Shown here piece after piece: positions 1 to 21,100 of a DNA stretch of 64,000 nucleotides. This DNA comes from Tubiluchus corallicola. Lineage: Eukaryota; Priapulida; Priapulimorpha; Priapulimorphida; Tubiluchidae. The position numbers and the translations under genes were made by a program. The stretch covers positions 1 through 64,000 of the forward strand of contig JAQGDQ010000121.1 of NCBI GenBank assembly GCA_030141605.1, written 5' to 3'. The first letter of the stretch is position 1, and the number at the start of each line of letters is the position of its first letter. The notes beneath the pieces are model-generated. The model did no database searches and was not told where the DNA came from. It saw nothing but the letters and a program-made list of their open reading frames with translations.

Positions 1-558
1 GCAAAAACACAAGAATAACATGAAAAAAACTTGGGAAACAATAAACAGTATTATAAAAACTGATCCAAAAACACGACAAACACCAAGTAAGTTAACAATA
101 AATAATGTGGACTATACAGATACATATGATATTGCCAGTAAACTAAATGAGTTTTTTGTAAATATAGGCCCTGACATGGCTGCCAAAATACCTAAACCTA
201 ACGTTAATTTTACTGACTTTTTGAAAAACCCTAACCCAAATTCTTTTTTCATTAATCCTATTACTGAAAATGAAACATGTACACTTTTAAACACACTTAA
301 TTCAAACAAATCACCAGGACCACAAAATATACCAATATCTTTTTTTAAATCTGCAAGTCAAATTATTTCACCAATACTCACATTACTGTTTAATAAATCG
401 GTTAATGCTGGAACTTTTCCAAATATATTAAAAATAGCAAAAGTTATTCCTTTATATAAAACTGGCTCTCCACATGAACCTGGCAATTACAGACCAATAT
501 CTCTCTTATCACCAGTATCAAAAGTTTTTGAGAGGCTAATTTACAAGAGATTATACCA
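1..558 (+). pseudogene. LINE ORF2 fragment: start of reverse transcriptase
   Basis: Continues ORF2 in frame from codons QKHKNN (bases 2-19) through a linker rich in Lys and Asn, then the early reverse-transcriptase blocks: NKSPGPQNIP, then the YRPISLL block, then SKVFERLIYKRLYQ. It is cut after RLYQ at about 558, where the sequence flips into the - strand arm. The catalytic palm (FADD-type motif) is absent from the window. Frame and motifs are seen directly; assignment to the CR1/L2/jockey group is by resemblance. Confidence 0.85.
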
Positions 559-577
559 GTTATTCTTGTGTTTTTGC
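1..577. repeat. 19-bp inverted repeat at LINE inversion
   Basis: Bases 1-19 are the exact reverse complement of 559-577. Both copies encode QKHKNN of ORF2: the left copy is joined to the downstream half, the right copy to the upstream half. The repeat may be longer, because it starts at the window edge. Confidence 0.9.
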
Positions 578-2070
578 AATGCTTCAGTGTAATATTGTTT
601 TTTTGATGATTCTTTGACATGATTTAATTTATTTGAGTAGGATTTGTAGTAGATTTGTTTGTATAAATTATTTGAGAGTTTGTGTGATTTGTAAAGACGT
701 GATCTGATTTTAATACTATTTAAAATTCCTTTAGTGATCCATGGTTTTTGAAATGTAATAGTGTCTTTCCTAGACAGAGTTTGCAAAGGAAAATGATTAT
801 TAAACACATTGAAGAGTATTTCATTAAATTTGCTAAATCCCTCATTAGTTTCCAAGTCATTAAAATTTATTTTGGCTAATTCTAGCTGCAGGTTATTTAA
901 AAAAATTTGTTCAGTTGAATTTTTAAAATTTCTTGTGGTGATTTTGTTGGATTTCATTTTCAGTTTAGTATGCTTTATAATTGCAAATATAGGAAGATGG
1001 TCGGCTACTTGATAAAGCAAAATTCCAGGTGTTACGTGGTTGGTGAGGTCATTTGTATAAATATGATCAATGAGTGTATTAGTGTGATGAGTTATTCTTG
1101 TTGGTTTAGTTATAATTGGCACAAAATTATTAGAGAATAACATGTTTGTATAATTTGTCACTGAAGTTTTGCTGTCACTATGTAGTAAATTAATATTTAT
1201 GTCACCGCATATATAGCAAAATTTGTTAGTTCTGTTAATTAAGGATAATTTGCTTTCTAGTTCTTCATGAAATTCTTCAAGGTTAGTATTTGGGTGCCTG
1301 TAGATGACTCCAAATAAAATGTTTTTGATGTTGGGTGGAGTATCTATTTCAATCCACATATTCTCCAGTTGCATACGGTTTGTGGAGCCATTTTTACAGT
1401 CTGAGTTGTGTATTTTGTATTTAGGCATTTCTGAAAAAATTACAGAGTTTTTGATATACAATCCCACACCACCTGCATTGGTTGTAGAATCGTCACGAAT
1501 AAATTGATACCCAGGTAAGGGTGTGAGAAAAATATGATCTTTTTTTAAACGGGTTTCACTTAATGCTATAATGTCAGGAGGGTTTTGAAAGTGTAAAAGA
1601 ACGTCTAACATACTAGTGTAATTTTTGTTTATACTACTGACATTAAAATGCACAAAAGTGAAATCCTTACTGGTATTTGCTAAGTCATCTTGACTAGATA
1701 GAGTTGACAGTTTATAATAATTACTTTCTTGATAAGGAAGAAAGTTATCAGGATCATTATTATTAGTGGAAAAGTTAGTAAAAGTAGAAAACTCACGCAA
1801 AGAAGGTAGACTGGTCAGAGTTGACATGGATACATCTAGTCTAAAAAATTCTTGTATATCCTCATTCTCTTGTTCCTGGAAGGGGAAAATATCATTTAAG
1901 CATTTAATACAAAAATAAATATCATTATTACTTCCTAGTATATTGAATTGGTTAATTGTCAGAGCAGTGCACCTTAAATGGGTCCACTGATAACAATTAT
2001 CACAGTTAATAGAATTTTCATTATATTTACAGGGTCTAGCACATTTATTGCAAGGGTGCCTAACTGGCAT
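541..2070 (-). CDS. LINE ORF2 N-terminal part: PHD-like finger and APE-type endonuclease
   Basis: The ORF encodes 509 residues. Residues 5-65 form a Cys/His-rich PHD-like finger (CNKCARPC, CDNCYQWTHLRC, CIKC). From about residue 135 comes an apurinic-like endonuclease with its usual motifs: FNVSS, ALSETRL (catalytic Glu), VIYRHPN, CGDININ (Asp/Asn), LIDHIYTN and VADHLPIF (Asp-His). In the family this enzyme nicks target DNA to prime reverse transcription. The last residues (WYNLL and stop) come from the inverted arm, so the true protein ran on into reverse transcriptase. The endonuclease looks catalytically complete, but this copy cannot make a full ORF2 protein from one strand. Confidence 0.85.
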   Translation of the reverse strand: MPVRHPCNKCARPCKYNENSINCDNCYQWTHLRCTALTINQFNILGSNNDIYFCIKCLNDIFPFQEQENEDIQEFFRLDVSMSTLTSLPSLREFSTFTNFSTNNNDPDNFLPYQESNYYKLSTLSSQDDLANTSKDFTFVHFNVSSINKNYTSMLDVLLHFQNPPDIIALSETRLKKDHIFLTPLPGYQFIRDDSTTNAGGVGLYIKNSVIFSEMPKYKIHNSDCKNGSTNRMQLENMWIEIDTPPNIKNILFGVIYRHPNTNLEEFHEELESKLSLINRTNKFCYICGDININLLHSDSKTSVTNYTNMLFSNNFVPIITKPTRITHHTNTLIDHIYTNDLTNHVTPGILLYQVADHLPIFAIIKHTKLKMKSNKITTRNFKNSTEQIFLNNLQLELAKINFNDLETNEGFSKFNEILFNVFNNHFPLQTLSRKDTITFQKPWITKGILNSIKIRSRLYKSHKLSNNLYKQIYYKSYSNKLNHVKESSKKQYYTEALQKHKNNWYNLL

Positions 2071-2095
2071 TGATAATATTTACATTTTTTACACT

Positions 2096-3085
2096 TTAAT
2101 TTGTTTTATTCACTACTTTGCGAAAATCTGTTTCTGTTTCTATGGCAAACACTTCACTTTCATCATTGTATTTTAACAAAATTCTACCATTTTTGGTCCA
2201 CAAATATTTAAAATGTCTTTCTTTTTTGAACTGCTTAACATCGTAAAACAGTTGTTTTCGTTTTTGAGTCAAGCTCTCATTAATGTAGATTCTTTGCCTT
2301 CCATAATGGTAACTCCCTGTAGGTAAATCGCTGGTATATGCGACTTCGCCTCTTTTCTTAAACATCTCGTCCCTCTTGGTTTTCCTAACAAACTTCACTA
2401 TGATTTTTGGTGTTTCTTTCCTTACATTTGCCGGTAATCTGTGCGACACACTGATGTCACTGTCATCTATTTGCACTCCCATCGAGTTTGCTAGATCTTT
2501 CACAATCTCATCCGTGTCTTCTCCCTTTGTCACAGGTATCCCAGTAATCTCCAAGCATTCTCTCCTGCTATATTGTTCTAATCTGTCAATGGTTGCATCT
2601 TTGTCTTTAACCGACTCTTGTAATGTAGCAACAGTTAACTCTAGGGATTTTACTTTAGTTGTAAGTGAGTTTACCTGTGTGACTACGCCTGAAATTTCCT
2701 TTTTCATGTCCTCAAAGCTGTTTGAAATAAACTGTTGCGATTGTTTAATTTCTTCTGTTTCTTCAGAAAATTTTCTGTCTAATGCACTAACCTGCTCTTG
2801 TAAACTTCGAATGGCATTCAAACACTGTAGGCTGACCGACTGATCACCTGCTGCCGTCGTGTTGTTTTGCATTGACTGGGTATTCGTTGGTAAATTTTGC
2901 GTAGTATCAGCTGTTTGTTCCGAAGCCGTTTGCTTTCCCGCCATATTTGAATTATTTGGCGCGTTACTAGTGGAAGCGTTTTGTTCACTCATCTCAGCAA
3001 CAGACTGCGTTCTTTTGGGATTTTTCGATCCTCGTGTCTCCATCATATCATAATCAAATGTAATAAGCTTAGTTAAACGTTTCAA
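2096..3085 (-). CDS. LINE ORF1 protein (coiled coil plus RNA-binding domain)
   Basis: 329 codons; the likely start is one of the paired Met codons at 3046/3043 (MMETRGS), giving about 315 residues. Order of parts: a Ser/Asn/Gln/Thr-rich N-terminal tail, a heptad-rich coiled coil (about residues 90-170, containing LQEQVSALDRKF and LEQYSRRECLE), then a basic RRM-like C-terminal domain with ITGIP, VSHRLP and KNGRILLKY, as in ORF1p of many invertebrate LINEs. In that family it coats element RNA as a trimer. It is intact, with no internal stop, and lies 25 bases ahead of ORF2 on the same strand. Confidence 0.8.
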   Translation of the reverse strand: MKRLTKLITFDYDMMETRGSKNPKRTQSVAEMSEQNASTSNAPNNSNMAGKQTASEQTADTTQNLPTNTQSMQNNTTAAGDQSVSLQCLNAIRSLQEQVSALDRKFSEETEEIKQSQQFISNSFEDMKKEISGVVTQVNSLTTKVKSLELTVATLQESVKDKDATIDRLEQYSRRECLEITGIPVTKGEDTDEIVKDLANSMGVQIDDSDISVSHRLPANVRKETPKIIVKFVRKTKRDEMFKKRGEVAYTSDLPTGSYHYGRQRIYINESLTQKRKQLFYDVKQFKKERHFKYLWTKNGRILLKYNDESEVFAIETETDFRKVVNKTN

Positions 3086-3170
3086 TTTTGCGTAAGCACT
3101 TTAAATTTAATGATTTTTGTCAGAGCTCAATGAAAGTCAAACTGCTGTTTTTGCGCCGCAGCGCACATTA

Positions 3171-4012: not shown

Positions 4013-6394
4013 ATGACGACACAGCTGCCATCTGGACCAAATCCAGCCATTCGAAGGAGGCTTAGTGTGACTTCTGTTGCATATACACCACAAATAGCAT
4101 ATACTACTCAGGATACTGCTGCAAGACAACTACATAGGCCACAACCACCATTACGGACACCTATGCTTAAATCACATGTAAATGCAACTAATTTAAAGGA
4201 AAACCGGATGATTGTGTAAACACAAGTTCAGAATAAAGAATTCTCTAAAATATTGCAAACTACAATAGCTTATTTTAAATCAGAGCTTAGATTAAATAAT
4301 AACTACCTCGGATACTCAAATTTTGTTAAACTTTCAAAGCTACGCGCAGCTCAAGATTGGCAGCGGCGCCTTTTTTCATGTGCGCGTGGCTGACAAATAG
4401 AAGGCGGTACCGTGCTAACCATGATCGTGAACTGCTGTGTTAGTTTCATGACGTCATATGATGTAAAGCCCATTTTTCGTGACATCATGCATTTAAGCTT
4501 TAGTGTAACATCTATGCAAATGTGCTTGATGCGCAAGGGAAGACACCTGCCATTGCACAAACTGTGGTTAGTTTCTGACTTAAGCAATAGCTGTGTTCGG
4601 TTGCAGTTAATTAACTTTCTAAGTTAATTATTCAAATATAAGGAACAATTGTTAACTTTTATAGGCAAGAAAATGTATATTTTTGACAGTAAATTAAAAT
4701 GTAAATCTAACTAAATAAACATAAATTTAGATTGAGTCTAAACAATCGTTCGGTCTTCCTTTAAAAACTGTATGACAGTTTTGTTGCAAGTGTGCAAGAA
4801 TGTTGCAATGCCCTTTGGCAATTTCAGCCAATGAATGTTTGTATGTTATACATTAGCTCATCGTAGTTTTACGTGATAGAAATTACTTATATCATTTTGT
4901 GTCAGAAGTGCAATCAGATCTGTGATATTTTAATAAGCAGGCCTATGTTTGTGTACATATTATCAACTTACTATAAGTGATTGACAATATCTGCATTGAA
5001 TTAGACAAAATTGCCCCTTTAGTAAATGACAAGTTTGAATGATCGTCAATGAGACTATGAGTAAAATTTATAAACTGATTGATACAAGATCATTGAATTG
5101 AAAGTGAAGAGTATATATATTACATATATGCAGAACTGTATGGTCTTGTGAGATACCTTAACACCATAATGTTTTCCAGATGACTAATAAACATAAAGAA
5201 AAACATACAAAATCGCAACCAGACGACAGAAAACCGCCATCTGGAATTAGGCTCCAAAAGCTGGACAGTTCACGACCTTCAACACCCTCTTTGTGTCATT
5301 ATACACCTTTACCTGATATACCTGCTCCTGGGAGGAGTACGAAAAATTCTACTCCTACTTCAAAAAAAGATAGTGAGGTGAAACTTTTGAAGACTGATGA
5401 AGCAAGTGTGACACCTGAAAACGTTGTAGCCATGTCCGATGTGAGCATTGAAAGACTGACCATAAGTACTAGAGAAGAAGGGAAACAAACTAAGGCAAAA
5501 GCATATGATAGCAATTCTAGTTCTCAGGCAACCATGGAAACAGGAAGTGGAAATGCTTTGAAAAATAATAAATACAGAAAAAATATAAAAACTTTGCATA
5601 AAACAAGTGATGCTTTGCGAATTAAACAAAAGACTATAGAACCCTACATCGTTGCAGATGATGGCAGCTGGAATTTAGATATAGATAACAGTTGTAATTT
5701 ATACAAAAAAGAGCAAATCAAAATAAAAACAGTGGAACCAGGCATTAACCTGAAGGGCGTGGATCACAGCAGTCAGACGAAAAATTTGGTAATAAATGAC
5801 TATGAACACTCATCTGTGGAGAAAACAAGTACATCTAGTCATTTTGTGATTGCAAAATGTGTGTCAAGTGAGACTAAAGACTCTGTGACAGCACAGACAG
5901 AAAGTAACCAGCACTCCAGCAAAGAACTACCATCAAGAAGTCCAATAGACAGTGGTAGGGATGATGTTAGTACATCAGTAGCCACCAATAACAATGTTGC
6001 ACCAACTCAGAAAACAGCTGATCAGTTAATGATGAAAAGAAATGACACAAAACGAACAGAAAGGAGCCAAGTTGCTGTAATTTCAACAGATGAAAAAACA
6101 TTGACTTCCAAGCCAAAGACAGATACAAAACTCCAAAGCAAAAAAATTAGTTTAGCTTTGAAACTGCCAAATGGCAAGCGGGTCTTGAAAGAATTCAAAA
6201 TATCTGAAACTTTACAGGTGGTGGTGAACCAAGCTCGGTCCCTTACACTATTTCCTGATGAGGTTAATGTCGCTGTATCTACGTCATCTGTTCCAAAGAT
6301 TGTCTTTAGTGATTTAAATGTAAAAATATCTGATTCTGGATTACGAGACAGAACACTACTTCATGTGCATGTAAAAAAAAGTGGAAGGCAATAA
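4013..6394 (+). CDS. UBX-domain protein, UBXN10-like
   Basis: Two coding exons are proposed: 4013-4177 (55 codons, entered through an acceptor at 3997) and 5180-6394 (404 codons and stop), both phase 0, giving about 459 residues. The second exon has a good acceptor (gttttccag). The first exon's donor (CAT then GTAAAT) is only fair, so its inclusion is less certain. Most of the protein is Ser/Thr/Lys-rich and looks disordered. The last 85 or so residues form a ubiquitin-like UBX fold: KKISLALKLPNGKRVLKEF, then SVPKIVFSDLN, then RTLLHVHV. UBX proteins recruit the p97/VCP ATPase; vertebrate UBXN10 has been linked to cilia. The SVPK loop resembles the VPR of vertebrate UBXN10 rather than the common FPR. 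Orthology is inferred from the C-terminal pattern and C-terminal position of the domain. Confidence 0.65.
4449..4456. promoter_or_regulatory. Perfect CRE palindrome TGACGTCA
   Basis: An exact CREB/ATF site lies in the proposed intron of the UBXN10-like gene, followed by two related half-sites (TGATG, TGACATCA). It may be chance; no promoter is otherwise evident here. Confidence 0.2.
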
Positions 6395-7340
6395 CAACTA
6401 GACAAATTATGTGGAACGGCCAGATTTTAGAAATGTTAGTATCATAGCTATGTTGATAATTATGTGTGATATTATGGGTTACTCAATTACATTTGAAGAC
6501 ATATTATGCATGTGGTAATTTGCTCTTCTGTATAATGCAAATTCTCAAGTTTCTATTATTCAGTCGTTTATGATATCTAAGAAAGTCTATGATCTGTTGC
6601 AAGGATTGGTTACCTCATGTACTTTATAGACAGTACAGCATTATTTTTGTTTTATGGAAGGTAATGCAAACACACATCAGCTACTTATTGTGCATTATTG
6701 TCACATTTTATTTAATCAACAAATCCTGTCAGCATTACAACCTTCAGTTAAGTTTGGAAAATTATTGAAAAAACTATAACTGTTGTTTTAATTCATATTA
6801 ACTATGTTTAGCTAGGGCACGAGAACTAATTAGTAAAAATATGTCCCAATGTTTTTAGCTTCATAAGGAAGTCTACTGGATACTAATAGCATGTCACGAT
6901 TAAAAGACATGAGCTTTACGTGCTGGTGTATGCTTATTAATTAAAAATGCCTTGCAGTCGTTACTTAAAAAAAATTAAAATTGGTCATTTAAGTAAGGCA
7001 CTTTTATTTTATATAATAATGTAATATAAGTGTATATAAAAGAGAATAACCTCCTATAATTTTATAATAACAACTGACAAGATATATGTGTGCTACCTGA
7101 TTCAGCACTAGGCCTGTGACTGTGCACAATGTTGAGAGTTTAGTCGTGCAATATACAGCAAGTGTACATTCATGAAAAAATACTGACAATTTGCACTTAG
7201 ATGTACGTATAGCAAGATCGTATGGATCAGTGTAACTATTAGTACTATGTAAGAACATTAATTATAACATTATGGAAGACTATAAATCAGTGACAATAAA
7301 ACACTTAATTGCACAGGTATTAGAAAAAACATCAAGTATC
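6395..7340. other. 3' region of the UBXN10-like gene
   Basis: AT-rich and non-coding. It should contain the 3' UTR of the upstream gene. Possible polyadenylation hexamers exist (AATAAA near 7293, ATTAAA near 6941), but I cannot choose between them. Confidence 0.3.
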
Positions 7341-8587: not shown

Positions 8588-8965
8588 AGCTTTAAGCCAC
8601 AGGGCATAAAATAAATAGGTAAGATATTCATAGTCTATTTTCGCAGTTTCTTTTTATACAAATTATGGGTGGTGATGCATAAAATTAAATGAAACAGTGT
8701 ACCAGAACTGCAGCATATTTTATACACGAGCTGACTTGAAAAGCTTATGTTAATGCACAGTTGATTGTTGGTGTACAACAGAAAACATTTATCTTAAATG
8801 AACACATTTATGACTATTCTAAAATTGAACACACACACACGCACACAGAAACAGCTTGTTCCAGAGGGGCTAGAAAAAACAATAGTATACACTGACTTTT
8901 CACAATAATCTTCAATTTCTAAAAAGATTATGGGTAGTGGAGCATAAAATTAAATGTGACATTGT
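8588..8965. repeat. Diverged direct duplication in probable PLOD 3' UTR
   Basis: Two units of about 115 bp, at 8588-8702 and 8848-8965 (offset near 260), share an opening acagctt and a strongly conserved core ttatgggt(g/a)gtg followed by gcataaaattaaatg. They lie on the 3' side of the PLOD stop codon (- strand), so they are probably transcribed in its 3' UTR. An (ac)n run at 8831-8846 sits just before the second unit. Confidence 0.5.
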
Positions 8966-9111: not shown

Positions 9112-12100
9112 TCACGGATCGACGAATGACACCATGATATATCGGATTCCATCTTTAATTTTCAAACCTTCGTGATAGTGAGTCAGCTTGCCAGGGTGCA
9201 TGAGCGACCAGCCTTTACGCGTGTGCAGCAATGTGCAGTTATAGCGAATGAATCTCACCCCTCCACCCTATCAAAAATTATGCAAAATATTAATGTCACT
9301 GTTGGCTCAATAAATTCTTTCTCATGCCATGTAGATTAATTATGGCTCATGTAGAAGAAAAAATGAATCATTAAGATCAATGCACTACTTAAAGCATTAA
9401 CTACACTGCACATTTGCTGCTACTATCATAACTTTTATTGTCCCGACTGGCCACATGACATAATAGTGTCTCAGAAAAACCAGCTTTTAGTCAGACAGGT
9501 GCCATCAAAGCAAATAAGGGACATAGATAAGCCAAAAGATGCTGAAAACTTAAGGTTTCTAATTTTTAAGATACTTAAACCTGTCACTTACTGTGCTATT
9601 TAAACTGCATAATTATGGTAAACATGCCAAAATCAAATTTTAAAAAAAAATTAATATAGGTTTTACATGTCAAATGTAGACCTGTGTTAACTCAAATGTA
9701 GATTTAGGTAATTCAAATGTATTAAAAAATGTAATAACAATGTATTAACGTCCATACAAATAGTTGCAAATTAATTAAATATAATAAAAATTGATGCTGC
9801 CGATAGCACCATGATCATAAAATATAATTTTAATTTGGTTTTATCTTTTTGTAATTTGCCCTTAAATGAGTTAATTACCGATTTATTCAAAGTACCACAA
9901 CTACATTTGACTTACCTAAGTCACATTTGAGTTACCAAAACACATTCGAAATTCCTATGTCTACATTTGACTTACCTAAGTCACACTTGAACATTCCTGT
10001 GTCTGCATTTGACGTGTAAAACCTATACCGTGCATGAATTACTGACCACAATAAAGTAGAACTAAGCTCAATTACCCATGATTTCATTAATTTGTGACAG
10101 ATAGAATACAAAACACTTTGTCATAAATCATATTTCACTGCCTTTTGTTTGGTTTTTATATTCTGTTGTCTTGCAAAAAGCAAGCTTTAATCATGTTGCA
10201 AAAACTATTATTCACACCAACAAAACTATAAATACATATAAATATATACAGTGAATGGTCACTAATATCACAGTTTGCAATGTAGTGTGCAACTTCCATA
10301 ATTTCAGCTATTCACATGACAAGACTGAAGAAAAGGCCAAGCTTTCTGGGAAGCTAGATTTATTTTAATGTTTGTGAAAAATGTTAGAAGGATTTAGTAA
10401 TAAAAGTCTGGTAATTCTTCGTGTAATTAGTAAAATCACTAGGAAGTCGCGATCATTTCACTCTTCGGCACTCCCATTTCGAAAGCCAATTCTTCTACAA
10501 ATGTCATTCATTCATTGGCTGAAGCAAAGCAGCACACCATCAATTTCCATCAAAAATATAAGTCTCACCGAAAAGTTAGCTCGCTAATTTTGTGACATTT
10601 TTGCAAGGACATTAAGTTGCAGAAATTTCAGTTAGTTTAAGCAGCACATGCTTACAATAGGAAACGATTAGCCTACGACAAGTCACAAAATCCACTAGAT
10701 ATTTCATAATTTTACAGTGAATGGCGGCTATCACCGTGCCTAAAAATATCCATACAGTGGTAGTATATATTAAATTTAGGCTTTATAGACAGTTTTCCAC
10801 AAATTTCTTTGTTATATTTTTCTAAGTGTAAGTGATAACAACAAAATAGCTGCAGCATGCTAAGTGACTTGTCCTTTCCTTTAATCTATAAAAAGAGGGT
10901 GTCAATGACCCTCGATCAAAATTACCCATTACAGGGCTAGGGGCCCGTCAAATAATTAAAAACTGTGGTCTAACTGAAATATAAAACAACTTAAGAAAAA
11001 TTTGCAGTACCCTATCCTGACAATTTGCCTTTATCTTTCTCGCATCAGCGAAGAACAGCTCTTTATCCTTCTCATCCAAGCTTTAAAAATACACATGGTC
11101 TTTGTAACAACCCTGGTACAGTAATATAATTGCAAAAACAACTTACCGTATAATCTTTTAGATAATTATTGAGAGCCAAATTTAATGTGTACGTCGAAGA
11201 ATCATGATGAGGACGAAGAGAAGGCTGCTCATCTATCTTATATCTAACCACGAAGTTCATGATGGCTTGTGGAGGCTAAGTAACCAACAATATCACATTA
11301 AAATCAAATTTTCACCAGGAATTTAATGCACAAACAATTATATGCATAAACTTAGGCAAAACATTTACAACTTTGTGGTGTTCAAAAGAAAGCACAAATG
11401 TTCAACCAAATCAAAAAGAATGTTAAATGTAAAGCCAATTTCTCTAAAATGTTGATAATGAAATCAAGTACATTTAGAAGAAAATTTTTATGCATATGCT
11501 TCATCAAAAATTTTAAATTTAACTAAAAAGACACACTACTATACAATATGATATTTTCTTATATTAAAAACATGCTGTTCTGCATTGTGCAAGAAAAAAC
11601 TAACAACTAAGAATATTTATCCAACTTATTTCACGGAAGTGCAACACATGTATACATACGGGTATTAATACGCAATCCCTAAGCTTTGAGTCAAACATTC
11701 CAAAGCTTTGTCTTGCAAAGACATTGTTACATGTGAGATATTATCTTGATCAAAGCCTGCAATTGCATATTAATGGTTTCTAAAATGTTTAGCCATGCAG
11801 TGCTGGTATAAAAAGCAATTAATAAACATACTTACATTGCAGCGTTTCAGCAAACTGACGTAGGAAGTGAATTAACAAAATATAAGCAAATGTACTCACC
11901 AAAGCTGAAGCAAAAGCCATGGCAATTAGCTCAGCACTAGTAGCAAAATAAGCACATTATTTATTTTAAGTAATGAGTAAGCTTTAGTAACTGCGTCTTA
12001 GTGTATTACTTGCATGCCACTGTTAGCAGTAATTTGTATTTTTAAAAACCATGGACAGGCACTTTCAACATGGGAAAATTGGGCACGGCTGCATTGGTGA

Positions 12101-15100
12101 CAAAACCTTGGGCACTGGCCAACTTGGGGATGAGACATTTGGGCACTAATGATGACACATATTGGTTATTGCTTTGCTATTGTGCCATGACTTTATTACA
12201 CAAGTATACATATTTCTGTGTTGCACTAAAAATTATGACGTCCAGTTTGTTAAAATTATGGGAATCCTCATCCCATTGTTGCCGGACAACTTTTAAAACA
12301 CCGAACGTTTTTGTAATAAAAGAAATAATTATTTTTGTGAATACAATTATGTAATAAAAGCTGGAAACAACTATAACTAATCTAGCATGTGTAAAAATAA
12401 CGCTACTGAAGGGAGAATTATCATGGATTTAGCAAAGATACATAAATAGTTTTCAATTACTATTCTTAATCTTGATGAAGATAATTATATAGATATTAAG
12501 CAGTAATTTGGCTCGTTAATTGATCTGGTCGTTTTTGATTTGGCAGCTAGAATGTAAACAACCAGATAACGCATTTTGCCAGTTTCTTCTAAAGCATACC
12601 AAACAGTCAATGAGTACAGAATTACGATATAATTCTAGCTGAAACACTAGCTGTGCTGTAACTAAACTTTGGCGTGAATAATTTTTTGTGACTCACTAGA
12701 TATTTTTTAAACAAAATGTTACCATATTTTAATAAAATATTACTCTAAACTTGTGGTTCTTTAACTTCGTTCATTTTTGAAACTACATTCAATACTAAAA
12801 GTTGAAAACCTGAACCTGCAGAAAAATATGACTGGTTAAAAAACTTTTAATTATTCCATCATTATATTATGCACTGCATAAATTTTTAATAAATTTATTT
12901 CAGTGAAGCTACCTTAAAAAATGCTGTGAGAATTAGAAGATAGCCAATCATTAAAGGAAAACTCAAGCTTTCCTGGAAGTTAGGCTTATTTCAATGTTTG
13001 CAAAAATTGATAGGATTTAGTAATAAAAGCGTCGATAAGCACCTCATGTAACTAGTAAAAATCACTTTAAAGTGGCAAACATTTCATTCCACATTTGGGC
13101 GCTCCTATTTTAAGCAGCTATTCTTCCACAATGACATTGTTTAATGACTGAAGAAACACAGTGCAATTTTACAAAAAATTATATAGCTACACAAGAACAG
13201 TGATATTTTTGCTTTGCATGAACAGAAGGTAAGCTGCAGAAGCTTGAAACAGTTTAAGTAGCGTGCGCTTACACAACGCCATGGTGCAAAGTTCACTAGT
13301 TACATCATAATTTCAAGTGAATGGCGGTTACCACTGTGTCTGAAAATTTTTATACAACAATAGTACAAAATATTTTTATTCACATTTTTTTCACATTTCT
13401 ATTTTATATTTTTGTAAGTTAACTGTAACAGTAAAATAAACCCAACATGTTAAGCGACTTGCCCTTTCCTTTAAAAATTAAACAAACACAAAATTAATAA
13501 AAAGATAGGTATAACATAAAGTTTTTGAGGCATCCAAATGTCTCCTGCCCAATGTCTTTGTGCCCAAATGTCCCATGTCCAAATGTCTCGTGCCCAAATG
13601 TCACATACCCTTAAAATATGTCATAGTTACATGTGAAGTGTTTCATACTATTAAGGAATTTGCACATAAAATACAACAGCAATAAGGCAAATGCATATAT
13701 AGTGCCATCTACCATGCAAAACTTGTACTGTTCATAAAAACTAATAATAAGCAAGTTTAAGCATTGAAGTTTAACTTCACACATTAAACTCAGTACATAT
13801 TTCTGTGTTAGTCATGGGAAGCAGGAGTTTACACAGTTACACCATGCGGTACCATGCCTGCTTAACTCACGTCATGGTGATAGCCGATAAAAATCTTCTT
13901 CTGCATTGGCTGATGATAGGTCTTCAGCATGTACAACCACAATCTCTCCAATCCGACTTGATTTAAGTGTATATCGCGTGTTGGCACGTTTTCGTACCCT
14001 CCTTCTAACCTGGGGTCCTGGTAAATCCAAATCGATAAGATGCTGAGCATTAACTACATATTATGAGTCTCACCTATTGGAGGATAGTGAGTCACTGTGC
14101 AAGGTACAGTCTGGGTACTTACAAGCGACACCATGGCCTTCCCTTCTGACAAAAGCAAAACAAAAAAGAGCTAAAAAAGTGGATGCTCATACATACCTTT
14201 TGTGATCAGAAGCACCTTTCATTGAGCATGCATTACCAAAAAGAAAAAACTCAAGACCACAACAAGTGTTTACCATTTTCATAATTGACAGAGTTGCACT
14301 GCATCCTTTTAATTTGTAGCAAACAAATAGAAAAAAAGGCAAGCCGCTATCAGAAAATGAAGAAAGAATAATAAGATACCAAAATCTGCTTAACTGATTG
14401 CTCAAAGTGAAACATCACGCCTAGTACTGTAAACCAGAAAAAAGTGTGAGCTAAATTTTTGCAAATTGAATTTAATGTTGAGTTAATGTTCCGTAAGGCT
14501 CCACTACAGAAAAGCCATTGCCAAGTTAATAACATTTTCTGTACTTAGCAGTGTATATTACAACCAACATTTAACAAAACACTTTTATTACTAGTGTTAT
14601 TTATGCACCTGGAAATTTATGCATCAATACGTCTTTGCAAAATTCGGAAACATGTCCAGCATATATTAATTTTACTTTTTACATTATTTCATTTCACTTT
14701 GAGCAAAACTACTATCTTATAGGTGCTTCAAGGAATCACTTTCATTATTATAATAGCCTCGTCTATCAACTCACATCATCAAAATAACCTGGAAACAATT
14801 TCCGCTGTACAGGCATCACATACGATTTCAGGAACCACAACCAGTGGTCATGCAGGCCCACCTGACGCATGTGAATGTCACGCGTTGGCACGGCTTCATA
14901 CCCGCCTTCAAGACGACTGTCCTGTCCAAATTAATCTAGATACATTAGTAAACCAACACCAGAGTTTTTTCTTACATATGCCAAGAAAAAATCGAAAAGC
15001 ACAACTCCTAACGAGTTGTCAAGAGACGACTACAGATATGTTAGTACAATGCCTCAAAGCAAAGAAACATAACACTAAGACATGCCTAAAAACAACCATA

Positions 15101-18100
15101 CAGTAGCGAGAACAGACTCTAGTAAACCATCTCAAGAGTGAGATAAGAAAATCTTAACATCTGCTCACTGGGAAGGTGCATGGGTGCAGGCATAACTAGT
15201 TACTTACGTCATGATTGTAACCAGCATACATTTTCTGCTGCATAGGACGAGAGTAATATTTGAGCATAAACAGCCACATACTCTCTAATCCCACCTGGTT
15301 CAAGTGAATGTCGCGTGTTGGAACATTTTCGTATCCACCTTCTAGTCTCACATCCTACAGAAGCCGATTTGTGGAGCAAGTGCAATGAAGCATGTAATCG
15401 TGCATATACCAGCCACCATTAGGTGCTAACAAGCCATAACTGACTTGCAATACCCAAACAAAATAGACCTTCATTTGCTCATAAGCAGCATGCAAATAAA
15501 GCTGGTGCTTGTACAAGGTGCTAGTTATATAACCCCTCCACTGCTGATCATTAGAGTGTGACTCACATCCTCATCATAACCAGGATAAAACTTTAACACT
15601 AAGGGCAGGATGTAATCGTACAGAAGCTTCTGCCACTGGTAAAATAGTCCTATCGCAGTTAGGTGTACATCATATGTGGGCACTGGGTCCTGGGATAAAT
15701 AAGCTAAAGTGTTATATAAGGTACATGTGACTCATGGAAAGAAGGTTTACAGTCATTTGTTCAGTTTAGGCCAACAGGATTAAGGATGTAGTTATTCAGA
15801 AAGAGGCTCTGCATAAGTAAGATTACACAGCTGCACTTTGTTACTTTTTAATGCATGTTTGCTAGACTGTATTTTCAAACAAAAATGAAAAAAGTTAAAA
15901 TGAAAACTTGTTAGGCACAACTTTGTCACATCTTTTCTGTAAAAATTAATGATCGTATAAAATTTTTTCAGCATAAATCTTACATTCGAATTACATTTCA
16001 ATACTTTAACTTATTTTAAAAGAAATTGTTTAAAGAAATACTGCTCTCAAATACATTTTGCTTTAAAAATTGTAGTCAAACGTATAAGGAATTAAAGGAA
16101 AATTGAAAGAAAAATTATCAAAAAAAGTAGTCCGCACACACAATTGCATTAAATAGAAGACACAACTTTGAAATGAAGAAGCCAAAACCATGACAGATGT
16201 AAAAACTGAAAGTTAACAAATATAATTTATAAAAAAAATAAAATTATTTATAACCAGACAACATAGCAAAATTGTAATAATCTATTATTTATAATCTCAA
16301 TTTCAAAATTAATTTATTAATGAGGGCATCAATTCTTCTCTAGTTACTGAATTTACTGAAACCAACTTCCATTCAGATTCATCCTAGTTTGCGACTTTAT
16401 CCCTTCATCAATATTGTAATAACTTTTAAATAAGCAGGAAGTGCCTAAGTCAAGAAGCAAATATCAAGAAAAAAAATCAGACTATATAAAGGCGTAAACA
16501 ATTGAGCATAAAATAAAAATTGCATAAAACTTTTTACATATTTTACTATAAAAGTCTTACAACTTGACTTTGTAACAGACAAAACAATAAAATTTTTCTT
16601 TGTAGTGGACATGGGATTTGTAAACCTAGGACTCCCTGTGTATGTAATGCAAAGAATGGAATGCACACGGTTCATATCAAATGGAATTTCCACATAAATA
16701 TAACATATTATGCCACTTTTGTGGTTTCAGTAGATAGCCAATGTGGTGCTCAATGCACGCTAGATAAACTTTACCTTAAATATAACACGCATTTTGCAGC
16801 CTCTCAGACTGATAGCAAAGTCGTACTCCTACCCACTCGGGGTGCCAACCGGCCATATTCCACCGACAAATGGTTAAAAGGAGACGCAATATACCCCATG
16901 GCGACCCAACTTGGCACTCAGTTGGGTAGGGGAGAAAAACAGCCAAGCCGCTGGGTCCCGGTTTTGGACCCCTCCACTTTAGGCCGACTACCTTTAGTGG
17001 CAGAAACCGTTATAGTTGCAAAGAATAATAAAAATAAACCTGGACGGGTGAATGGAAGCGCCGGGGCAGCGCGAGATACCCCGGCGTCGACTTACGGTCT
17101 GTTTAAGGACAAAGAGACTGGTACAACGATAACATTGAATTATCCTGTGCAGGTCAGCGACCGCTGTCCTGTGTGTGCGAAGGCGATTCCCGACTGGAAG
17201 TCGGCGAAATCGCATGTGAAATTATGCCATGGATTGGGCGTCCAGAGGCTAAAATTCCGATGTGTAAAGTGCGAAAAACTGTGGCCATCACTCCAGAGTG
17301 CCTGCAGCCACTACAGGTACTGTTCCACCAGAGTACCTGATGAAGCAGCTCAAGCGAGCGGTGGTACCGAGCCGTCACAGGATGACGCTCACCGCTGTCC
17401 TGAATGTCCCCGAGCCTTTAAGACACACGCGGGACGCCAACAGCATAGAAGGTGTGCTCATCCTGTCGAATATAACAACAGTCTTCCTGGACCCAGGGAG
17501 AAGAGGGCCGACGGTGCAGGTACACTGTGGACGGATGACGAACTCAGGCTCATGGCCGAACAGGAGCTCAAGTTCCACCCCAAAACAAGGGGGCTGGCCA
17601 AATTCCTCCAGCAGAGCCTGCCTCATCGCTCGATTGAGGCCATATATAGTATTTGGAAATCCGTCCGCTACACCGCCGCTAAAATGGCAGTAAGAACGGA
17701 AATCGAGCTGGCCGCCGGCGCAGGCGCTAACGATCCAGCAGCGGAGAGGGGCCCCGCTGCCCACCCTGCTGAGGTCGAACTGGTAGTCGATGAGCCACAA
17801 CCCTGTGTGAGGGCAAGCAGGGACACACCCGGTACGAGGGCAAGCCGGGAAGCACTTAAAGAGAGTATTGAAACCGAAATACGAATTGGGAATGTGCATA
17901 ATCGCACAGACGTGGCTGCTGCTCTGGCATTCGCTAGAGCGGCCTTGGACGGCGGCGATTTGGATATGGCCTTTCAGGCAATGAGCGAGGCTTGGTTCCC
18001 CGAGGATGTACGTCCACAACCAGCCAGACCCCGCCCTGTTAGGCGAGCTCTCGATCGACCCCCGAACCGCCAAGTACGCAGGAGGGAAAGGTATAAGACA

Positions 18101-21100
18101 TACCAGAGACTGTATCAGAGAGACAGACGCAAGCTTGCGAACGTCATACTCGATGATGCACCGCTGGATGTCGAATATCCCCCCATAGACTGCGTCGAGC
18201 AAACCTACATCCAGAGATTCGAGAAACCGTCTCTTCCGGACGACGAACCTATCGAGGACTTCAAACCGTGCGAAGATCCCGACGGCCTCTGTGCCCCAAT
18301 TGCACGCGAGGAAGTGGCCAAAACCTTCAAGGCCATGAAGTCACGTTCGTCCCCCGGTCCGGATAAGGCGGTCACCATGAAGGCTCTCCAGAAGATTAAC
18401 AAGGGCGCGATAACCCTTGTTTTCAAAGTGTGGCAATTCCTACGCGAGGTCCCGAAAAGCCTCAAGGAATGCCGCACCACCCTCCTACCTAAAGGCACGG
18501 AGGGCCTTCAGGACGTTAATAACTGGCGCCCTATCACAATCGGATCTCTACTGCTCAGGTGGTATGCCAAGATTCTGACCTCGAGAATCCAGGCAAGGGT
18601 CAAGCTCAACCCACTCCAAAGAGCCTTCCAACCAAGGGACGGCTGTTCAGAGAACCTGACTCTCCTGAACACCGTGATTCGGCATGCCCGAGCAAGTCAC
18701 AGGGAATTAAACATCGCATTTCTTGACTTAGCAAAGGCATTCGACACGGTACCTCACACCTCGATCGTGAGGGCAATGCGAAGGTTCGGCCTTCCGGGAC
18801 AGGTTCAGGAGATCATTGGGGATATGTACACGGGTGCTGCTACACGGATATCGACGCCGGAAGCAAGTACTCGTCGTATCGAAGTTACGTCTGGTGTCAA
18901 GCAGGGATGCCCGCTATCACCCTTGCTTTTCAACCTGGTAATCGATGAACTGATCTCAAAAGTCGGTTCTCGATTTGGCTATGAGATCGAAAATCACCAA
19001 GTGGCCATAGTTGGTTTTGCCGACGACCTAGTCTTGATATCGAACACCAAGCATGGCATGGGCAAGTTGTTGGAGACAGCACAGGGCTTCTGCACAAAGA
19101 GGGCAATGGCACTTAACGCAAAAAAGTGCAAAGCCATGCGACTGGTCAAGGCATACCGGCGAAGTGCTATGAAAGTGATCGTAGATCCCACATGGAACAT
19201 CAGCCAGACTCCTATCCCGATGTTGGGAGTCGCCGAGACGTACAAATATCTCGGAATACCGTTTGGCACAAGAGGGCGGCCCGCCATGGGCACAGATTCT
19301 CTTAAAACATGGCTGCTAAGAGTGGAAGGGGCGCCACTCAAACCTCAGCAGAAGGTGGATATGATCAGACAATACGTGATTCCGCGTCTGACATACCGCT
19401 TTCGTATATGCGAGGTTCACATGAATGGCCTCAAAGGTGCCGATAGGCTAATACGATCAAGCCTAAAACGCATCCTCCACCTCGCGGTGGATGTACCGAA
19501 TGCATTTTTTCATGTTCCAATGAAAAAGGGAGGACTAGGGTTTTCTTGTCTGGAAGAGGATGTGCCTCTGATGAAGATCAAGACCCTCAGTCGTATGCAA
19601 GCCTCACCAGACGCACTGGTGAGCATGAGTGCATCGGCACCGGTGTGGAATAAAGAGCTGGAGTGGGCCAAGAGGGTTACTAACCTCGAAGCCTACAGTC
19701 ACGGGCGAGATATTAGCCGTGCAAAAAGGGAGATGGCCCAGAACCATCTAAACTCGTTTTTAGCGAAAGCACATGGGAAGGGCTTTGCAGCCGTATCTGC
19801 AAACCCACTGAGTACTCACTACCTGCGTAGCAGCACACTCCTGAGGGGGGGTGATTATATCTTGGTTCTCAAGATGATCACCAACTCATTACCAACCAGA
19901 GTTAACTCCACGAGAGGAGCACCCAATGCAATCAGGAGATGCCGTAGGTGCGGGAGACACGCAGAGAGTCAGGTTCACGTACTTCAACAGTGTAGCTCGA
20001 TAAAAAATGCCGTATCCCGACGGCATAATGCACTGTGTGATGTGCTCGCCGAAGCCCTCACCGCCAGGGGCTTCAAGGTCGTCAGGGAACCTTGGTTCGA
20101 GGTAAACAGAACAAGGTACCATCCTGACATCCTGGCGACCAAAGATGGTCATACCTACGTTATCGATCCGACCATCTCGGCAGCGAGCAACATCGACCCG
20201 CTAAGGGCCAGGTGCAGGGACAAGGCCCTGAAGTACAAACCGATCCTCGATGCCGTCAAACGGCGGTGCGGCTCTGCCACTGCCTCGTCGCACGGCATCT
20301 GTGTGGGCTACCGCGGTGAATGGGCAGGTGGTGAGAACGATAAGATCCTTAAGACCTGTGGTCTGCTGGGAATCAGGGCCAAGCTGATTCGCTCAGTGAT
20401 AAGGGGCTCATGTATGATCTGGAGGAGATTCCTGTCCTGAGTCGGTTCCTATGATGAGGACCATAGGCACGGTCGCGTCCTGCACAGGATGATAGGGAGT
20501 TAATAATAACAATGACCACGACCGACACAGGTGATACCACCGAAGCCTGTGAAATTCTGAGGAAATAATGAGCTGACTGATTTTAATAAAAAGACTGTGA
20601 TGACTTCTACAAAAGATTATTAGTGTCATCTTCAATGGTAATAGGGATGTATATTGTCTGCCATCAATATCATTATTAGTGTTATGACCATTAATAACAA
20701 AGTTTGTTTTGTCTTGTACTACCTGTACAAGAAATACACATATGTTCTTTTATGTAAATCTGCCCTCACATAAACTCATATTTGTTGAAATGCAGAAAAT
20801 ATAAGTTTGTAGGTGCAGTTTTAGAAGAAAGTTCTTACCTCGTGAGAGCCACTTGACCACTTTCCAAATGTATTCACTTCTCTCACCAGGTCATCACAGA
20901 ATTTTTCTGTAGTGAGTGGAAACCAATAAACATCTGGACAAGGCTGCATGAACAAAGTAAGTTTAAAACTGCATAAGAACTAACAAAAACAAGTAGTAGT
21001 ACCTTCCCTCACAGAATGAGCTATAAATATAATAAATACAAATGCTAATGTGATATCAGAAATAAAATTGCCCTACACATCAAATTTTATAAGCAGTTCG

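Follow-up and report, generated by a model that had tools for sequence, protein, structure and literature searches.

Splice choice is already known to alter the behavior of a lysyl hydroxylase: the human PLOD2 gene carries a 21-residue cassette in its accessory domain, exon 13A (LH2a/LH2b), which is reported to raise glucosyltransferase activity, with hydroxylase activities being comparable (PMC8055892). Here we describe a PLOD-type lysyl hydroxylase gene of the priapulid Tubiluchus corallicola (assembly GCA_030141605.1, contig JAQGDQ010000121.1, positions 1 to 64,000; this 64,000-nucleotide stretch is referred to as the window) in which four tandem, homologous exons, A to D, each encode the same unit of the hydroxylase domain. 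The small alternative exon of PLOD2 lies elsewhere in the protein, as the initial annotation of this locus had stated. The reading we favor, and regard as probable from the sequence evidence, is that the four copies are old and functional and that a single copy is spliced into each mRNA.

The segment concerned has been described structurally in human LH3. Residues 590–610 form a capping loop above the active site, and a second, non-catalytic Fe2+, bound by His595, Asp597, Asp611 and His613, locks this loop; in the locked state Arg599 faces 2-oxoglutarate and acts as a 'plug' that mimics the substrate lysine (PMC6082870, PMC9453210). Replacement of Asp597 or Asp611 by alanine weakens iron binding at the second site and gives more uncoupled turnover (PMC9453210). 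The loop is followed by a helix (618–639) and by a stretch in the dimer interface (640–650), with Phe639 and Tyr642 lying in a pocket (PMC6082870, PMC9453210); the tail-to-tail dimer is required for lysyl hydroxylase activity (PMC6082870).

The array is on the minus strand, between one pair of constant exons, numbered 17 and 19 in the initial annotation: an upstream exon (20943-20839) that ends ...GSHE, and a downstream exon (11275-11147) that starts PPQAIMNF and contains the catalytic HxD (RPHHDSST). In transcriptional order the copies are exon D (15689-15567, 41 codons, ending ...GYDED), which has a 24-nt in-frame deletion relative to the other three, exon C (15354-15208, ending ...GYNHD), exon B (14921-14775, ending ...GYFDD) and exon A (14017-13871, ending ...GYHHD), the last three having 49 codons each. 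The coordinates and lengths first assigned to these segments, and their shared phase of 0/0, were all reproduced on extraction. Each copy is of similar length, is open in frame and has its own AG acceptor and GTGAGT or GTAAGT donor, such that all junctions in the array are GT-AG and any copy can join the exon ending at 20839 to that starting at 11275; the acceptor of exon B has a weak pyrimidine tract (0.47). Window-wide tblastn with exon A recovers C (E 6e-25), B (5e-19) and D (7e-7), and exon D recovers B (2e-9); the similarity of D to A–C exceeds that of all 100,000 shuffles of the D residues (z 10), and a repeat search recovered the A/B/C repeat together with a minisatellite. The tandem array of homologous exons is real.

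Exon A aligns with LH3 residues 597–644 (numbering of chain 8zgc_A), with its last residue unpaired, and the swapped exon therefore corresponds to most of the gate, its helix and the dimer-contact loop. The earlier suggestion that the isoforms would differ in surfaces near the active site can thus be sharpened, to most of an iron-locked gate plus a dimer-contact loop. The equivalent of His595 is supplied by the constant upstream exon, and exons A, B and C all retain Asp597, Arg599, Asp611 and His613, giving with it the complete second-iron loop set. Among these three, variation affects 2 of the 17 positions at the start of the exon (LH3 597–613) and 17 of the 32 that follow (Fisher p 0.006); A, B and C thus keep the residues of the predicted lock and plug, and differ mainly downstream in the putative helix and dimer loop. 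The initial annotation had assigned one peptide just ahead of the HxD to every copy; exons A and C bear this out except that the final Met is Leu, and B departs from it slightly (GGYEAVPT). The assignment fails for D, which does not encode GGYENVPT because of a clean eight-residue deletion equivalent to LH3 599–606.

The divergence among the copies argues for long maintenance. Pairwise comparison of A, B and C gives proportions of synonymous differences (pS) of 0.82–0.99 and of nonsynonymous differences (pN) of 0.14–0.31, and comparison of D with A–C gives pS 0.64–0.91 and pN 0.37–0.39. Because synonymous sites are saturated and the protein is conserved, we conclude from these comparisons that A, B and C are old and selected, and not decaying. 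Only 8.1% of 123-nt stretches and 4.8% of 147-nt stretches between 11276 and 16560 (exons included) are stop-free in a given frame, so that relics at saturated divergence would not be expected to show four open frames and intact splice sites. Ten positions outside the deletion are shared without exception by A, B, C, LH3 and mimivirus L230, and D matches nine of them, with V replaced by I at the tenth; in a degenerate paralogue elsewhere in the genome (C1903, described below), the control for relaxed selection, 6 of 14 invariant positions are kept, with the alignment for these counts set by hand. The open frames, splice sites, synonymous saturation and retention of key residues together support well the assignment of the alternative exons to the catalytic domain of a lysyl hydroxylase.

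How old the array is can be judged roughly. A and B have 31 of 49 residues in common, A and C have 37 of 49, and B and human LH3 have 30 of 48; three constant exons are identical to LH3 at 22/35, 30/43 and 35/51 positions. The A–B pair is closer than B is to LH3 in 56% of 10,000 bootstraps, and no branch of the exon tree is well supported. A and B may have separated as early as this lineage parted from the human one, or else the exons have evolved fast; since the copies differ from one another about as much as they do from human LH3, the array could date far back and could be common across this animal group.

These features suggest a specific proposal for what the choice of exon would do. With one array copy spliced into each transcript, A, B and C would yield iron-gated enzymes that differ in helix and dimer loop, and hence, we propose, in substrate fit or subunit contact; D would yield an enzyme whose gate is unable to place the arginine plug, with the iron ligands kept and the glycosyltransferase half unchanged, and because the plug is gone its hydroxylase step would be ungated or reduced. 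Splicing would in this way choose the iron gate: three of the enzymes would be locked by Fe2+ and plugged by arginine, with subunit-contact surfaces that differ, and the fourth would be plug-deleted, so that a tissue could set the degree of iron self-inhibition of its lysyl hydroxylase. We offer this extension tentatively and would not be surprised to see it fail.

Several observations weigh against this proposal, or against the strict exclusivity that it assumes. High Fe2+ reduced uncoupled turnover by LH3 and apparently not its turnover of a peptide substrate (PMC6082870), so that what the gate contributes to ordinary catalysis is still in question. In mimivirus L230 the positions of LH3 His595 and His613 are occupied by Tyr and Gln; two of its four ligands thus differ, and the full iron lock is not shared by all lysyl hydroxylase relatives. 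The variable helix positions of A–C are not clustered on one face (p 0.30), and the pN of 0.39 between D and A is close to the 0.41 of the degenerate C1903 paralogue. Exon D could moreover be a weak or dead hydroxylase, because substitutions at the equivalents of Arg599 and Gly602 cause Bruck syndrome in human LH2. As for splicing, all of the exons are phase 0/0 and multiples of three, so that double inclusion or skipping keeps the frame and exclusivity is not enforced by it; the introns between the copies (212, 286 and 757 nt, from the exon coordinates) are not obviously too short; and the best docking-selector pairing with at least three introns (sum -77.6) was beaten by 12 of 32 dinucleotide shuffles, in a search of 16560-12600 of one genome, which takes in all but the final 1.3 kb of the intron after A and is a weak test. 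No selector-like element repeated before each exon was seen among 20 of the 24 direct repeat families and 25 of the 30 inverted pairs.

The most serious alternative concerns the function of D alone and is compatible with the array: that D is a switch-off form, hydroxylase-dead, with its glycosyltransferase half kept and possibly poisoning the dimer, and not an ungated active form. Exon D lacks the equivalents of LH3 599–606, including Arg599 and Gly602, and retains Asp597, Asp611, His613 and the aromatic character of the dimer pocket (Tyr at 639 and Tyr642). Human LH2 sites altered in Bruck syndrome and lying within the swapped unit are Arg619His, Gly622Cys/Val, Val627Ala and Thr629Ile in PLOD2 numbering (PMC9120662, PMC6082870), which we equate by spacing from the Arg with LH3 599, 602, 607 and 609; both the Arg and the Gly are thus gone from D. 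The Arg619 change is placed in PLOD2 exon 17, and cells with the PLOD2 Arg change contain almost no PLOD2 protein (PMC9120662). Since D lacks two residues that are Bruck-syndrome sites in human LH2, its hydroxylase step is likely changed, being either ungated or dead. The retained pocket aromatics, taken with the need of lysyl hydroxylase activity for the dimer (PMC6082870), are consistent with a dimer-poisoning role. Pointing the other way, D keeps three iron ligands (the fourth being in the constant exon) and nine of ten invariant residues, and the loop-loosening LH3 substitutions D597A and D611A raised uncoupled turnover (PMC9453210). We judge a switch-off form to be a strong contender, falling a little short of an even chance.

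The second alternative is that the four exons are cassettes not subject to strict exclusivity, with none, one or several in a given transcript. The phases, the intron lengths and the missing RNA pairing signal given above all agree with it. However, every copy stands in for one and the same part of a compact fold, and two in series would add 41–49 residues beside the active site; homologous exons that lie in tandem and agree in length and phase are usually exclusive. We therefore consider non-exclusive use improbable. Mutually exclusive use, as the favored reading has it, can reasonably be inferred, with membership of the cluster being provisional; the choice among copies would probably be made by trans-acting or cell-type splicing factors.

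It is considerably less likely that a single copy, probably A, is used and that the others are unused duplicates. The weak pyrimidine tract of the B acceptor and the strong divergence of D fit such a view, but synonymous saturation with a conserved protein and intact splice sites in 4/4 copies do not, and the relaxed C1903 paralogue shows what loss looks like. That the array is an assembly artefact or a set of collapsed paralogues can be dismissed for practical purposes, as nothing was found in its favor, the copies differ at saturation, all four lie on one contig within 1.8 kb and share one pair of constant exons, and genome searches gave no second exon set.

The gene that hosts the array runs on the minus strand from about 43.8 kb down to 9267-9112, and 16 constant exons in addition to the array were located as splice-flanked open frames. 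In the joined exon model, which is not a transcript, glycosyltransferase, accessory and hydroxylase domains are combined in a single chain; the joined N-terminal exons match the glycosyltransferase and accessory domains of human LH3 with an E value of 2e-97, and the hydroxylase half matches LH3 with 4e-100. Alignment with LH3 places the catalytic HxD, the distal His and the 2-oxoglutarate Arg in constant exons (RPHHD, and THYHEGL...IRYIMVSF). Twelve upstream exons, whose edges are approximate, were assigned to the glycosyltransferase and accessory domains, at 43784-43704, 43259-43126, 42804-42690, 42038-41925, 39846-39748, 38984-38883, 38079-37948, 35581-35462, 34777-34679, 33198-33073, 23134-22996 and 22521-22408. 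These are followed by a constant exon in the linker between accessory and hydroxylase domains (21541-21422), the two that flank the array, and the last exon (9267-9112), which reads GGGVRFIRY...THYHEGL and ends MVSFVDP before the stop. A signal-peptide exon was not located in this model, and LH3 stretches without a located exon fall between upstream exons 1 and 2, 2 and 3, 3 and 4, and 4 and 5.

Among the matches followed, window-wide tblastn gave no convincing additional duplicated exons in the gene. A short stretch at 32824-32771 that matches the HxD exon (E 0.019) was rejected as the surrounding open exon is absent, and a 21-residue match to exon A (E 0.002) that overlaps another exon in a different frame was taken as chance. 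The intron that separates exon D from the upstream constant exon holds an antisense open frame of 1290 codons (16568-20440, plus strand), probably of an R2-like retrotransposon with zinc fingers and a reverse transcriptase. The intron that follows exon A contains, at 12070-12149 and 13534-13608, minisatellite-like units around CCAAATGTC and an inverted partner 1.4 kb away (85% complementary over 26 nt), from which the RNA could fold into a long stem (uncontrolled duplex value -40.3).

The single genome examined comprises 343.5 Mb. A search of it with exon A and the HxD exon found seven places, namely A, B, C, D, the HxD exon and two exons of the C1903 paralogue; the D form found 11 places, including a weak match on C1201 (E 0.02, with two internal stops), and apart from this weak place neither a second intact PLOD copy nor a second exon set was found in the genome searches. 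The C1903 paralogue (C1903:262000-271500, with exon-like stretches near 1027-1146, 1618-1683, 4252-4398, 6704-6823 and 8682-8834 of the locus) is diverged and has a single, 49-codon version of the swapped exon; its HxD is gone, Gln replaces the C-terminal Arg of ...TRYIM, and the exon preceding the swapped one is shortened or frameshifted. It appears to be a pseudoenzyme or a decaying copy. Using the joined exon model of the hydroxylase domain (20943-9112), the D form scores 31.3 bits against the Pfam OGFOD2-like family (cut-off 31) and the A form 26.8, and the shortened D loop may be similar to that of OGFOD2-like oxygenases; the sole match of this family in a genome search is the upstream constant exon of the PLOD gene. 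Genome searches with COX1, insect cuticle, GH6 and nematode cuticle collagen families yielded no match, with a positive control for one of the four; a Pfam oxygenase family profile search missed the PLOD gene itself, and such misses carry little meaning. Viral contigs were scanned for lysyl hydroxylase relatives and none was confirmed.

Elsewhere in the window, two adjacent open frames of 334 and 512 codons (541-3100, minus strand) resemble by eye a non-LTR (long terminal repeat) retrotransposon protein pair, the second beginning with a PHD-finger-like stretch, and a 410-codon open frame (5162-6394, plus strand) has an end that resembles, again by eye, a UBX domain.

About half of the identified human PLOD2 variants fall in a narrow region of the hydroxylase domain (PMC9120662), and the capping loop of lysyl hydroxylases is prone to disease variants and still under debate. 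Four natural versions of the gate, one of them plug-deleted, would provide ready-made variants for the study of collagen choice, uncoupled turnover and dimer contact. The open-access literature, covered as titles and the starts of abstracts and with most subscription papers, supplements and genome annotations outside its scope, yielded no alternative or duplicated PLOD exon except 13A; automatic annotation of such isoforms may exist.

Tandem arrays of alternative exons are well known as a kind, and the interest of this one lies in its place on an iron-controlled gate and in the natural deletion of the plug in D. Dscam is an example of a mutually exclusive exon array in arthropods. The arthropod muscle myosin heavy chain arrays likewise consist of homologous exons in tandem, with a single one used (PMC2257972); unlike the arthropod arrays, the one described here is in a gene of different identity and function, and it gave no docking-selector signal above shuffles in the stretch searched. 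As with PLOD2 exon 13A, whose splice choice changes enzyme behavior (PMC8055892), the choice lies within a lysyl hydroxylase gene, but here it is a hydroxylase-domain unit that is swapped, among four copies. As in human LH3, encoded by PLOD3, exons A–C keep D597, R599, D611 and H613, the constant exon keeps H595, and there are aromatic residues at 639 and 642; unlike LH3, exon D drops residues 599–606. To our knowledge, no alternative version of the swapped exon is known in vertebrate PLOD genes. The three vertebrate genes provide several lysyl hydroxylase forms in one animal, and the same is predicted here; unlike in vertebrates, the genome searches yielded one gene with intact catalytic residues and one degenerate paralogue, and variety would arise by splicing, which would show a route to several collagen hydroxylase forms besides the separate genes of vertebrates.

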